Virus record (IMG/VR): IMGVR_UViG_3300021519_000046
Coordinates: 1 to 29,599 of that record
Source of the DNA: a virus
Length of the DNA: 29,599 nt
Reading direction: 5' to 3' (one strand)
The translations under genes and the position numbers were made by a program. Below the pieces are notes generated by a model. That model saw only the letters and a list, made by a program, of their open reading frames with translations. It searched no databases and had not been told where the DNA came from. Position 1 is the first letter of the stretch; each line of letters starts with the position of its first letter. Of this stretch, positions 10,157 to 26,135 are shown in pieces.

Positions 10157-10690
10157 ATGTCAAAACGAATTAAAATATTTGGTATAGATCCCGGCGCAAA
10201 GAGATGCGGCTACTCCGTAATCTCTGTTGACCTGGAGTTTAGCAACCACGAATATATTACTTCGGGTATTTTTGGTCTCTCTCGAAACGATGAAGAGATG
10301 GAGACCTACAGTGGATATAAAAAACGATTAATAAAGAATGCAATAGATAGTTTCCAGGATCTGCTTGATGAGCACGAGCCGGATATCGCAGTGTTCGAGT
10401 TTTTGCCAGTATCTAATGTGGGAGCCGCCGCCGGTCAACGGCTCCTTGCTTTTGCCGTTGCAACAGTTGGACAAGCAATGTGTGATTTAAATGCTGTCCC
10501 CTGGAATGAAATAACGGCTTCAACCGTTAAAAAGATATTGACCGATTCAGGTGTTGCAACAAAAGTTAAAGTTAAAAATAGCGTTATTGAAATATTCCCA
10601 CAACTAAAAGAAAAGAAATATCTCGCAGATGAGACTGATGCGATAGCGGTGCCAATAGCATGGACGAAAAGAAAAAACACAGAGCGTTAA
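10157..10690 (+). CDS. ruvC: RuvC-like Holliday junction resolvase
   Basis: A 177-residue RNase H-fold resolvase. It starts with FGIDPGAKRCGYSVI, giving D11 of the first strand. E81 lies in AVFEF and the final pair D158 and D161 in DETDAIAV, the same acidic set and spacing as bacterial RuvC (D7, E66, D138, D141). It would cut four-way or branched DNA so that replicated genomes can be packaged. ATG 10157 directly follows the previous TAA. The gene overlaps the next one by 31 bases. Length matches the family. Confidence 0.9.
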   Translation: MSKRIKIFGIDPGAKRCGYSVISVDLEFSNHEYITSGIFGLSRNDEEMETYSGYKKRLIKNAIDSFQDLLDEHEPDIAVFEFLPVSNVGAAAGQRLLAFAVATVGQAMCDLNAVPWNEITASTVKKILTDSGVATKVKVKNSVIEIFPQLKEKKYLADETDAIAVPIAWTKRKNTER

Positions 10691-11004
10691 GAGAAGCCGT
10701 CAGGCATTATAGAGAATTGCAGGAACTCTTCACTGGCAAGGGGGTTCTAGTGATATCTCATGATGGAATTGACATATGTTTTATGGATTTATCGGGTGCG
10801 CTTGAAAGACTGTCCCCAAGAAAAAAAGAAGCAATTTATTATAATGTCATTTGCGACATGAAACAAAAGGATGTCGCAAAGATTATGGGAATTACCACGG
10901 TATCAGTCGGTCAATATGTAGAGTCGGGATTTGCTCAGGTCGCAAAAGAGTATTTCTCGGATCAGATTCAAACTCCAAAAAAGAAGAGAAAATCAGTTGA
11001 CTGA
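10660..11004 (+). CDS. Sigma-70 region 4-like HTH protein
   Basis: A 114-residue protein. Residues 48-92 (ALERLSPRKKEAIYY, then MKQKDVAKIMGITTVSVGQYVE) match the sigma-70 region 4 helix-turn-helix, where the first block is the usual L-x-R-E-hydrophobic helix and the second is the recognition unit. Region 2, needed for -10 melting, is absent, so this is not a full sigma factor. It may bind -35 elements or RNA polymerase, or simply be a DNA-binding regulator. The C terminus is basic (PKKKRKS). The gene overlaps ruvC by 31 bases and the next gene by 8. The HTH call is firm; the link to transcription is inferred. Confidence 0.75.
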   Translation: MDEKKKHRALREAVRHYRELQELFTGKGVLVISHDGIDICFMDLSGALERLSPRKKEAIYYNVICDMKQKDVAKIMGITTVSVGQYVESGFAQVAKEYFSDQIQTPKKKRKSVD

Positions 11005-22579: not shown

Positions 22580-22591
22580 CCTTAATAGGTG

Positions 22592-22795
22592 ATGGCTTAT
22601 TCTGAAAAAGAACAGCAAGTTATTGCCTGGAGAAAAGATGTTCTCATTAAGGCGGGTTGGGAACCGGCTATGGCTATTGAAATTGCAGTAAAAACAAACG
22701 TAGATCTTCGCGTTGCTGAGTCGGCTATCAAATGCGGCGATTCGCATCAAGCCTTGTACTTATTATCGCTCGTAGACGAGCCAAATAATAAATGA
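22592..22795 (+). CDS. Small helical phage protein
   Basis: A 67-residue protein; ATG 22592 with an in-frame GTG three bases earlier. It is built from short helices (VIAWRKDVLIKAGW, AMAIEIAVK, VDLRVAESAIKCG, QALYLLSLV) with the A-G-W...A...VDL...A pattern seen in many small actinophage proteins of unknown role. Its TGA (22793-22795) overlaps the first pairing strand of the structured RNA region that follows. Last gene of the small-gene cluster. Confidence 0.7.
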   Translation: MAYSEKEQQVIAWRKDVLIKAGWEPAMAIEIAVKTNVDLRVAESAIKCGDSHQALYLLSLVDEPNNK

Positions 22796-22945
22796 AGAAT
22801 CGGTATGGACAGGGGGGTGATCTGAGGTCTACTTCTCACAAAGAAGTCTTCGAAACCACAGGGGCCAGAGTACTGGCAAAGACCAGTCCTCACCGTTCTT
22901 CATGCCGGTACTCTGGCCTTGCCGCATTCTATTATGCATTTGTGT
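22794..22945 (+). ncRNA. Candidate structured RNA, attenuator-like leader
   Basis: No gene lies here. The clearest element is a 16-bp hairpin: 22863-22878 with 22903-22918, one wobble pair, 24-base loop. A second hairpin is ACTTCT (22831-22836) with AGAAGT (22842-22847). The big loop can also pair with the upstream strand: GGTCT 22826-22830 with AGACC 22880-22884, GGTGA 22816-22820 with TCACC 22890-22894, and GAAGAA 22794-22799 with TTCTTC 22896-22901, so a pseudoknot or rival fold is possible. ACTGG 22872-22876 with CCAGT 22883-22887 would break the main hairpin. An intrinsic terminator follows. It could be a cis-acting leader or a free small RNA. No strong promoter of its own is seen. Confidence 0.6.
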
Positions 22946-22978
22946 GCGTACTCTAATTAGTAGAGTGCGCTTTTTATT
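22946..22978 (+). terminator. Rho-independent terminator just before ATG 22979
   Basis: A 9-bp stem (22946-22954 with 22962-22970, one G-U pair; a tenth A-T pair is possible) closes a short loop and is followed by TTTTTATT. The next ATG begins at 22979, directly after the T-run. The 5' arm GTACTCT (22948-22954) is identical to 22908-22914 in the upstream hairpin, so the two segments can compete for the same partners. Confidence 0.8.
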
Positions 22979-24088
22979 ATGTCAAATATAAATAAAAAAT
23001 CAGACTTTGGCTGGGGCACAGATGCTTATCCTGCGCAAGAGCCACAAGAGGTGCAGTTCCAGCAGGAACGCGCAGACATGTCCCAGATGCCACCGGTCAG
23101 AGATCAGCAATATGCTTGGGTTGTCTCCGGTAAGGACATCCTGGTGGTGTCTGAAGACAAACTAGATGATGCATTTACTGCGCTTGGAATCAAGAGAGAT
23201 CACCATGGCCCGGTTGCCACCGGAACGGTCAACGTTTCAAACAGGTGGACCACATCTTTTGTCGTCAACGAGTCAAATGTGGATTTGGAATATCTTGACA
23301 AGATTTTTCAGCGTTGGGCAAAAAACCCCAAGATGGATTTTGAAGATTTAAATCACAATCTGTTCATTCAATCTGTCCAAAATAAAAACGGCATACCTCT
23401 GCCTGTAAAAACCAACTACACAAATAGAAAATTTGCTGCCGATCCTGGTTTTGGGGACGGATTTAAATACCCTTGGAAAAATACAGACGAGAGCCTATAC
23501 ACCGAAATACAAATACAGGACAATGATCGTGGCAAACTGCCGGGTCAAGGTGACCTGAGTAATGGTGGAGAAAAACTTACTGAGGAAACATACCAATGCC
23601 CAGGATGTTTGGGCGTGTTTGCTGATGGCATTCAACTTCGCGAACACATGGTTAATTTCCATCGCAAAGATCCGCCTACCGGCTATGAGGAGGAGATTCG
23701 TGACAATGACGAGATGTTTTATCCCGACAACGAAGCCTCAAGGTCAAACGGCGAAATGCTCAACATGATGTCGTCGGCAAAAGACGACGAGATTGAGATT
23801 GATGGCCCCATTCCCTTTTCTTTTAACCCAGAAAAAAGCCGAATCTATGTCGGTCAGCCAGGGGACGAGAGACCCGAAGTCGACTCTGTAAACATGTTTG
23901 GGCTTGCCGAAGGCTATTACACGCCGGATGGGGACATACTCATTGTCACTCAAGCGTTTGCCCCATATTCTATTAAGTACTTTCTAAGGCTGTGGTACGA
24001 AATTCATCCCGAACTTAAGGTGAAAAAGGTCTACCTGATTAGAAAACAAAACGGTAGAAAAATCAAAGAGAGGGTTGCAAATGCTTAA
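22979..24088 (+). CDS. Protein with classical C2H2 zinc finger
   Basis: A 369-residue protein, family unknown. Residues 205-228 form a textbook C2H2 finger: Y-x-C207-x2-C210-x3-F214-x5-L220-x2-H223-x4-H228. The N-terminal region (45-130) has strands and helices (YAWVVSGKDILVVSEDKL, DLEYLDKIFQRWAKN), and the C-terminal 100 residues form another alpha/beta region (SRIYVGQPGDE, GYYTPDGDILIVTQAF) ending in a basic tail. ATG 22979 has no Shine-Dalgarno and lies against a terminator; ATG 23078, with AGGA upstream, is an alternative start. The stop overlaps the SWIM gene by 8 bases, so the two are a translational pair. Confidence 0.75.
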   Translation: MSNINKKSDFGWGTDAYPAQEPQEVQFQQERADMSQMPPVRDQQYAWVVSGKDILVVSEDKLDDAFTALGIKRDHHGPVATGTVNVSNRWTTSFVVNESNVDLEYLDKIFQRWAKNPKMDFEDLNHNLFIQSVQNKNGIPLPVKTNYTNRKFAADPGFGDGFKYPWKNTDESLYTEIQIQDNDRGKLPGQGDLSNGGEKLTEETYQCPGCLGVFADGIQLREHMVNFHRKDPPTGYEEEIRDNDEMFYPDNEASRSNGEMLNMMSSAKDDEIEIDGPIPFSFNPEKSRIYVGQPGDERPEVDSVNMFGLAEGYYTPDGDILIVTQAFAPYSIKYFLRLWYEIHPELKVKKVYLIRKQNGRKIKERVANA

Positions 24089-26135
24089 CCTTCACCAAAA
24101 AGCGGCGGCCTGGGATAAAACGCCCAGTACGATGTCTTTTGAGGAGTCCGAGTATGTCACAGATCCCGCTCTTTATGAATCCCTGGATCCGTCTAAGGGT
24201 TTTGATTTAGAGAAACTGGGAGCCACTCAACACCTTTCTGAATGGAAGGATGTCGAGCAAAAGGCAAAAAGGATTATTGACTCTGGTGGTGTTGATATCT
24301 GGGCAAAAGAGCCTAGAGATCCAAACAATCCGCTCGGCGCTGTTTCCATAAGTGGACAAATAATAGGCGACAACGGCGTGCACAAAGGGGTGGTATTGAT
24401 ACCAAGTCCCGCTGCATCGACAGTTATTTCATGGAACTGTTCTTGCACGTGGGGCGAGTACCGAAGACCCGGACTTCCAAATGTTAATCCGGACTATTAC
24501 CATGTTTGGGAGAGGTATTCCGGCCGCGTGTGTTCGCACATACTCTCCCTGTACTGGAGGGCCCAAGATTATCGGCAACGCATCGACTTTTCGGATGTCG
24601 ACCCCGAAATAATGCGAGCCGCAGCACCCGCCCTAACTGAGATGGGGGCCCTTCCGCTGGAGATTGCAAAACAATATGCGGATGATGCGTCTCCAATTGA
24701 TCCAGCGATATTAGAAGGTCTCGAGCCTGGCGAAACAACTTATCAAGACATCTTGCAAGAAGAAGATAGAGAAAGGCAAAGACTTCTTAGACAGCCGATG
24801 GATCTCGATGAAGAATCAATAGCCCTACAAGAGAGAATAGACGAGTCTTTCAATGCAATTCTTGACCCTGAATACCGTGTACAGGATAAATCCAGAGGCA
24901 TATTTGATACGGATGAAACAGAGACTTATAAAAAAGAAATTAAAGAACTAGAACAGCACATCGTTCCCTGGCAAGAGCAAATCTCTTTAATCGATGGCGT
25001 TCTGTTTATGGTCGCTATCAATAATCAAGGCGAACTGCTTGATCAAAAACAACTTCTATCTGAAGATTATATAAACAACATAGAACGTTTTGAATTATAT
25101 GATAAATCAAAACATGATGGAAAACATATAATACTTCCAAAAAGAATCCTAGAGCATCTTTTAGAAGAAGAAAACGATGCTATAAAAAATAATTTTTTTC
25201 AAACAAGCACAAATTTTAGAAAAATTTATTCTCAAATAACAGGTGGAAAAAACTGGGAAAATCTTGATGACAACAGTAGAAAAGAATTTATTAATAGATT
25301 AAAAATTATAGTAAAAAATCTGCGGTATTTCTCTAATCATCTGCAGTCTTTGTCTAATCCATTTAAAAAAAATATAGAAGACCGAAGAAAAATAATATAT
25401 CGTGAGCAAAAAAGAAACGCACTTACCAGGGGCGTGTCCCCAGACTATTATAGACAGTGGTTAACAGAAGCGGAAAAAGAAAAAAGATATTGGCAGTATT
25501 ACAAGGAGTATACTGGCTCTCAATATCTTGAAAAATTTGAAAGTGATTTTGAGAAAGATCCGATGATGGCTCTTCAAAATTCTTTGGCTGAAAGAATGCG
25601 TAACAGAACCCCCATAGAGCAAACAGACCGGGCGGTTCAAGAGCAGACAAAATATCTTTTTGCCCCCAGGGAGGAACCCGAAGAGGACCAAGGATTTTCT
25701 CCAGAAGAGGGGCCAAGAACCTCTAATTTCTCATTCATCTCCTCAGAGTTCGACATTAATGACATTACTATTTATTTGCAAAACGAAATAGGTAATGGAG
25801 ACAAACCGCCAGGTTACGCAAGAAGAGAGATGTGGGGAGAGCAGCGTGCCGGACTATGCCCACACCCAAGCGCGGTTCCTGTAAGCATGCGACCTGACGG
25901 AAACTTGATTTACTCCCAAGACGATCTCGGATATCATCCCGAACTAGGTGAGATGGGTCATACCCTCGAAGAGAGGGGAACCTATGGTGCTATTCCTGTC
26001 GGCGAAGAGATTAAAATACTTTCTGTTCATCCTAAGGATAGGATGATTCTAATTGAATATGATTTGGGCAACCCATCCCCAAACCATCAGCATATCCATC
26101 TTTGGGTTCCAATCAAAGATGTTGATTTAATTTGA
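24081..26135 (+). CDS. Large SWIM zinc-finger protein
   Basis: A 684-residue protein from ATG 24081 (AGAGGG just upstream; TTG 24075 is also in frame). The SWIM site is C120-x-C122 ... C151-x-H153, with WNCSCTW and RVCSHILSLYW around it. Residues about 220-520 are Lys/Glu/Asn-rich and likely coiled; the matching DNA (about 24890-25560) is clearly more AT-rich than its flanks. The C terminus is a separate region with AGLCPHPSAVPVSMRPDG and a beta-rich end (EEIKILSVHPKDRMILIEY). Such size and modularity would suit a virion or ejected protein, but no catalytic site is seen. It pairs with the C2H2 gene upstream. Confidence 0.75.
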   Translation: MLNLHQKAAAWDKTPSTMSFEESEYVTDPALYESLDPSKGFDLEKLGATQHLSEWKDVEQKAKRIIDSGGVDIWAKEPRDPNNPLGAVSISGQIIGDNGVHKGVVLIPSPAASTVISWNCSCTWGEYRRPGLPNVNPDYYHVWERYSGRVCSHILSLYWRAQDYRQRIDFSDVDPEIMRAAAPALTEMGALPLEIAKQYADDASPIDPAILEGLEPGETTYQDILQEEDRERQRLLRQPMDLDEESIALQERIDESFNAILDPEYRVQDKSRGIFDTDETETYKKEIKELEQHIVPWQEQISLIDGVLFMVAINNQGELLDQKQLLSEDYINNIERFELYDKSKHDGKHIILPKRILEHLLEEENDAIKNNFFQTSTNFRKIYSQITGGKNWENLDDNSRKEFINRLKIIVKNLRYFSNHLQSLSNPFKKNIEDRRKIIYREQKRNALTRGVSPDYYRQWLTEAEKEKRYWQYYKEYTGSQYLEKFESDFEKDPMMALQNSLAERMRNRTPIEQTDRAVQEQTKYLFAPREEPEEDQGFSPEEGPRTSNFSFISSEFDINDITIYLQNEIGNGDKPPGYARREMWGEQRAGLCPHPSAVPVSMRPDGNLIYSQDDLGYHPELGEMGHTLEERGTYGAIPVGEEIKILSVHPKDRMILIEYDLGNPSPNHQHIHLWVPIKDVDLI

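Follow-up and report, generated by a model that had tools for sequence, protein, structure and literature searches.

A conserved pseudoknotted RNA ending in an intrinsic terminator in a group of uncultured phages, and its possible contact with the 30S ribosomal subunit

Comparison of homologous loci from uncultured phages shows a conserved pseudoknotted RNA with a terminator, without a conserved open reading frame and without an Rfam class. The RNA was found in a viral contig of 29.6 kb (the window, by which we mean the whole stretch of DNA analysed), where it lies between p68, an upstream gene for a protein of 68 aa with no family assigned (22589..22795), and a downstream gene for a C2H2 zinc-finger-like protein of 369 aa (22979..24088). 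Both neighbours are conserved and, like the elements of the RNA described below, lie on the plus strand. The RNA is known from five loci, all metagenomic (the window, L003, L006, L008 and L009), and, on the evidence of these alignments, it represents a real, conserved and previously uncatalogued RNA family in this group of phages.

Results

The interval 22794-22978 folds at -70.2 kcal/mol, compared with -50.1 +/- 4.1 kcal/mol for 200 shuffles, none of which equalled it (z -4.9). The original prediction had placed four short segments here, and each is present exactly where it was put: A (AGAGTAC, 22867-22873), B (GTACTCT, 22908-22914), C (GTACTCT, 22948-22954) and D (AGAGTGC, 22962-22968). A and B do lie within a 16-bp stem (22863-22878 with 22903-22918, including one U-G pair), the hairpin P3 (22863..22918), which has an energy of -35.6 kcal/mol and a pair probability of about 1. 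C and D sit inside a 10-bp terminator hairpin (22946-22970) that is followed by TTTTT (22971-22975), ATT and the C2H2 ATG at 22979; this intrinsic terminator with its T-run (22946..22975) has counterparts in L003, L006, L008 and L009. Within one and the same molecule, P3 and the terminator each have a predicted probability of about 1. Two terminator-like sites were found where 3.1 are expected, a count that by itself is within chance. Upstream of P3 lies a further hairpin, P2 (22823..22852), made of 5 bp, a 3-nt bulge and 6 bp.

The loop of P3 had been proposed to pair with upstream sequence, and this is borne out: the strand TGAAGAA-T-CGGT (22793..22804) pairs with ACCGTTCTTCA (22892..22902) in the P3 loop, forming a helix, P1, of 11 bp with one bulge in the window. 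P1 is a pseudoknot and is for that reason absent from the ordinary fold. Mentioned only in passing in the original prediction, it is the better-conserved feature.

Conservation of the structure was assessed with a covariance model (R1) built from the window, L003 and L006, with the most divergent close relative, L008, left out. R1 recovers L008 at the syntenic position, scoring 43.9 bits (E 3e-11); L009 was not found by this model. When the four close sequences are aligned, 95% of cells pair and 9 of 27 pairs are changed on both sides, a result that none of 500 shuffles reaches, so that the covariation asked of homologues by the original prediction is indeed present. Sliding the partner strand by one to three columns lowers pairing to 34-48%; these slid controls are clear, although the set is small, with four sequences, and its alignment was itself fitted to the structure. 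P2 has 95-100% of cells paired in the four homologues, with covariation on three pairs, and P3 has six pairs changed on both sides. As for P1, hand alignment gives 9 of 9 pairs in each of the five homologues, with changes on both sides, whereas the slid control retains 16-26 of 45 pairs. The duplex energy of P1 exceeds that of shuffles strongly in the window (p 0.0005) and L006 and weakly in L003, and taken alone it is not significant in L008 (p 0.17) or L009 (p 0.50); the combined Fisher p is 2e-5, to be read with the relatedness, and hence non-independence, of the sequences in mind.

By alignment, the best-conserved part of the RNA is an 11-nt block with the family consensus GGNGGTGATC(C/T), which precedes P2 in every homologue and reads GGGGGGTGATCT in the window (22812..22823), at the 3' end of the strand joining P1 and P2. 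Between 9 and 11 of its 11 positions are identical to L008, while the remainder of the RNA is about 40-60% identical; L003 and L008 agree at all 11 positions of the block and at about half of the positions elsewhere. The block complements GGATCACCTCC, the 3' tail of 16S rRNA, which is single-stranded. The match spans the full block in four homologues and contains a single mismatch in L009, and the predicted pairing is worth -20 to -24 kcal/mol. Dinucleotide shuffles equal the tail match in 2 (window), 4 (L003), 3 (L006) and 17 (L008) of 5000 cases, counts that are not independent for the closely related RNAs of the window, L003 and L006. The L009 match (8.0) is equalled in 1157 of 5000 shuffles and is alone within chance. 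L009 also carries 17 nt complementary to 16S positions 1392-1408, with one G-U pair, which 2 of 1000 shuffles reach, and a search of other viral contigs for this double pattern of tail and second site returned L009 itself only. Both 16S sites are identical in the four bacterial sequences compared, from E. coli, Priestia, Sphingomonas and Clostridioides. A best match anywhere in 16S rRNA is as good in 7-45% of shuffles (window, L003, L006, L008), and the case therefore rests on the tail as a special target and on the conservation of the block. The GGU of the block is itself predicted to be paired, and in L008 GGUGAU pairs with AUCACC. Pairing of the block with the free 16S 3' tail is a plausible prediction from sequence complementarity.

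Other short elements recur. A CACC occurs in the P3 loop of the window (22879-22902), L003 and L006, and on the 3' side of P2 in L008; it could pair with GGUG of the block as an alternative to P1, which would mask the block. The sequence GCATTCTATTAT (22924..22935) is invariant in the window, L003 and L006 and is nearly matched in L009 as GCATTTCTTATTA. It could be a promoter element or a helix strand with ATAATA (22785..22790); this tentative helix, P0, would join ATAATA to TATTAT (22930-22935), and, being all A-U, it constitutes weak evidence. ATAATA is kept in the window, L003, L006 and L008 despite differing use of the reading frame, with stop codons in L003 and L008.

A portal search provided 20 relatives. 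The gene order from portal to SWIM is kept in L003, L005, L006 and L008, and partly in L009. The gap between p68 and the C2H2 gene holds the RNA and a terminator-like hairpin in L003, L006 and L008; the more remote L009 has a like layout in different sequence, with a P1 of 9 bp, a P3 of at least 11 bp and a terminator. A terminator-like hairpin with a T-run precedes the C2H2 ATG in all four RNA-bearing relatives, that of L008 being short (5 bp). L005 has both genes with just 30 nt between them, and its remnant AAGTAAGAGAGTCTTTTTCTTATG is similar to the terminator's 3' half, from which we infer that L005 lost the terminator's 5' half along with the RNA and kept the operon.

Scanning the L005 locus and the records of the other relatives revealed no second copies of the RNA, and among named phages there was no DNA similar to the RNAs of the window, L008 or L009. 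An exact 17-mer has true matches in viral contigs in L003 and L006 only, the others looking like coincidences in coding sequence. Alignments of the C2H2, p68 and phosphoesterase proteins led to no further RNA-bearing loci in viral contigs; the three relatives that they gave in genome contigs are remote. A match at position 2320 of L010, a more remote relative, was not accepted as a member (R1 8.5 bits, E 2.4); at this place GGGGGTGATCCGA immediately precedes a hairpin like that of an intrinsic terminator, and another intergenic sequence, GGTGATCC, occurs at 1712. No tRNA or tmRNA was found. The whole RNA matches no Rfam family at gathering or relaxed thresholds, with weak hits at chance level only, in agreement with the earlier statement that it belongs to no known class.

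The C2H2 protein has no Pfam or PHROGs family and no match in named phages, and its AlphaFold model is of too low a quality for use (mean pLDDT 55). Its homologue in L009 (13708-16100) is about twice as long, with a C-terminal domain that, read by eye, seems to occur in about four tandem copies. Two proteins of the window carry SWIM-like CxC...CxH motifs (23-313 and 24075-26135), the Pfam match of the shorter one (23-313) being sub-threshold (E 0.055). The protein encoded at 10660-11004 of the window contains sigma-70 region 4 (Pfam Sigma70_r4_2, E 4.5e-8); possibly this reflects a phage-specific promoter system with a bearing on C2H2 transcription. Rhodococcus and Mycobacterium phages have terminases that share 32-36% identity with that of the window.

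Discussion

How such an RNA might serve the phage is suggested by its most conserved part. On our reading the region encodes a structured RNA, about 150-190 nt long, that ends at its own intrinsic terminator; it folds into P2 and P3, and the pseudoknot between the 5' strand and the P3 loop locks this fold. The block is thereby held beside P2, on a joining strand some 18-23 nt in length, from where it may pair with the unpaired 3' end of 16S rRNA, and through this pairing the RNA would associate with 30S subunits during infection. It would act mainly as a separate RNA and presumably accumulate as such, while read-through, or else a phage promoter that escaped recognition, would account for expression of the C2H2/SWIM operon. 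L005, having p68 and the C2H2 gene in spite of the apparent loss of the RNA and of the terminator 5' half, counts for a separate RNA. We tentatively hold that this is a terminator-ended structured phage RNA contacting the 30S subunit, with a confidence that falls somewhat short of even, and it is the contact that we infer. A bolder proposal, which we consider unlikely in this full form, has the pseudoknotted RNA dock on the 30S subunit by way of the 16S 3' tail, and for the L009 lineage by way of the decoding-site strand 1392-1408 as well, and thereby redirect or damp translation in the infected cell.

The main rival to an RNA that contacts the 30S subunit is a cis-acting regulator of the C2H2 gene. 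It is conceivable, if on balance rather improbable, that the fold responds to a ligand or a protein, the downstream C2H2 product being one candidate, and alters read-through of the terminator to control the C2H2/SWIM operon without any competition among segments A to D. In each of the five RNA-bearing loci the terminator-like hairpin stands immediately ahead of the C2H2 ATG, so that this gene may be affected in cis. No sigma-70-like promoter was found between the terminator and the gene, and a fold of this complexity, conserved together with unpaired bases, resembles that of a riboswitch. However, no conserved alternative pairing opens the terminator, and in the window itself doing so costs 13-29 kcal/mol; moreover, in L005 the operon persists with both RNA and terminator absent, and the T-run lies too close to the ATG for a Shine-Dalgarno sequence to fit between them. 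The constant gene neighbour is uninformative in this matter because the whole block of genes is syntenic. Of the attenuator or riboswitch layout in the original prediction, the structured RNA with a terminator before the C2H2 gene is supported, but the switching mechanism is not.

Perhaps the block is instead a distant ribosome-loading site, at which the 30S subunit binds GGNGGTGATCC and is carried by the fold to the C2H2 ATG. The block is a strong match to the 16S tail, and no Shine-Dalgarno match precedes the ATG in the window, nor is one apparent in the relatives. Yet many other genes of the phage lack a Shine-Dalgarno sequence too, L005 retains the gene with neither the RNA nor a clear Shine-Dalgarno sequence nearby, and the terminator hairpin stands between block and ATG, so that loading at a distance strikes us as improbable.

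Still less credit can be given to the transcription attenuator as first proposed, in which A would compete for C, or B for D. The window does have A:B, C:D and identical B and C segments, but the identity is confined to the window: C is GCGCTCT in L003 and L006, where B is GTCCTCT or GTACTCT, so that the shared core shrinks to CTCT, and there is no counterpart in L008 and L009. Forcing A:C or B:D in the window costs 28.7 and 12.8 kcal/mol, respectively, relative to A:B plus C:D. The P3 and terminator hairpins form together rather than in alternation, and P3 forms before C and D are transcribed. A short translated ORF of 54 aa (22792-22956) in place of an RNA, open in the window and overlapping the p68 stop, was rejected as a gene and is hardly credible, as stops break its frame in L003 and L006, indels are not in threes, changes follow base pairs and no family matches.

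For an RNA acting on its own, the closest precedent appears to be the p40 5'-UTR RNA of phiKZ, which resembles the present RNA in size, structure, 5' UTR place and possible terminator, as far as the descriptions can be likened. In the portion of the phiKZ report available, this RNA is described as about 180 nt long, highly structured and present in RNAP-associated and 30S fractions, with two stem-loops, the last of which may terminate before the start codon, and with no convincing small ORF; the same portion reports no pseudoknot, covariation or 16S complementarity (PMC8545117). Actinobacteriophages make highly expressed noncoding RNAs whose function is not known, from Pleft in L5, D29 and StarStuff (PMC5712189) and in Rhodococcus phage WC1 (PMC10986025), and the Pleft region has toxic effects in M. 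smegmatis and, it appears, in E. coli too (PMC5712189). These too are phage RNAs, and the phage studied here has a terminase with distant relatives in Mycobacterium and Rhodococcus phages, but by their descriptions the actinobacteriophage RNAs are about 500 nt long, come from an early promoter at the genome end and have another gene context. Terminating riboswitches and attenuators share the layout of a folded leader and an intrinsic terminator before a gene; they differ in that the present RNA has no conserved antiterminator pairing and no Rfam match, and in that its terminator abuts the ATG. As in H-type pseudoknots, a 5' strand pairs with a hairpin loop, here with a hairpin inserted in the joining strand. 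The resulting strand order, P1a-P2-P3a-P1b-P3b, to our knowledge sets this RNA apart from the named ribozyme classes.

Few phage noncoding RNAs have been described, and hardly any has a known function. The present RNA offers a structure backed by covariation, a pseudoknot, a natural deletion in L005 and a concrete target that lends itself to testing. Should it prove to bind the 30S subunit, it would be a case of a phage acting on translation by means of an RNA rather than a protein.
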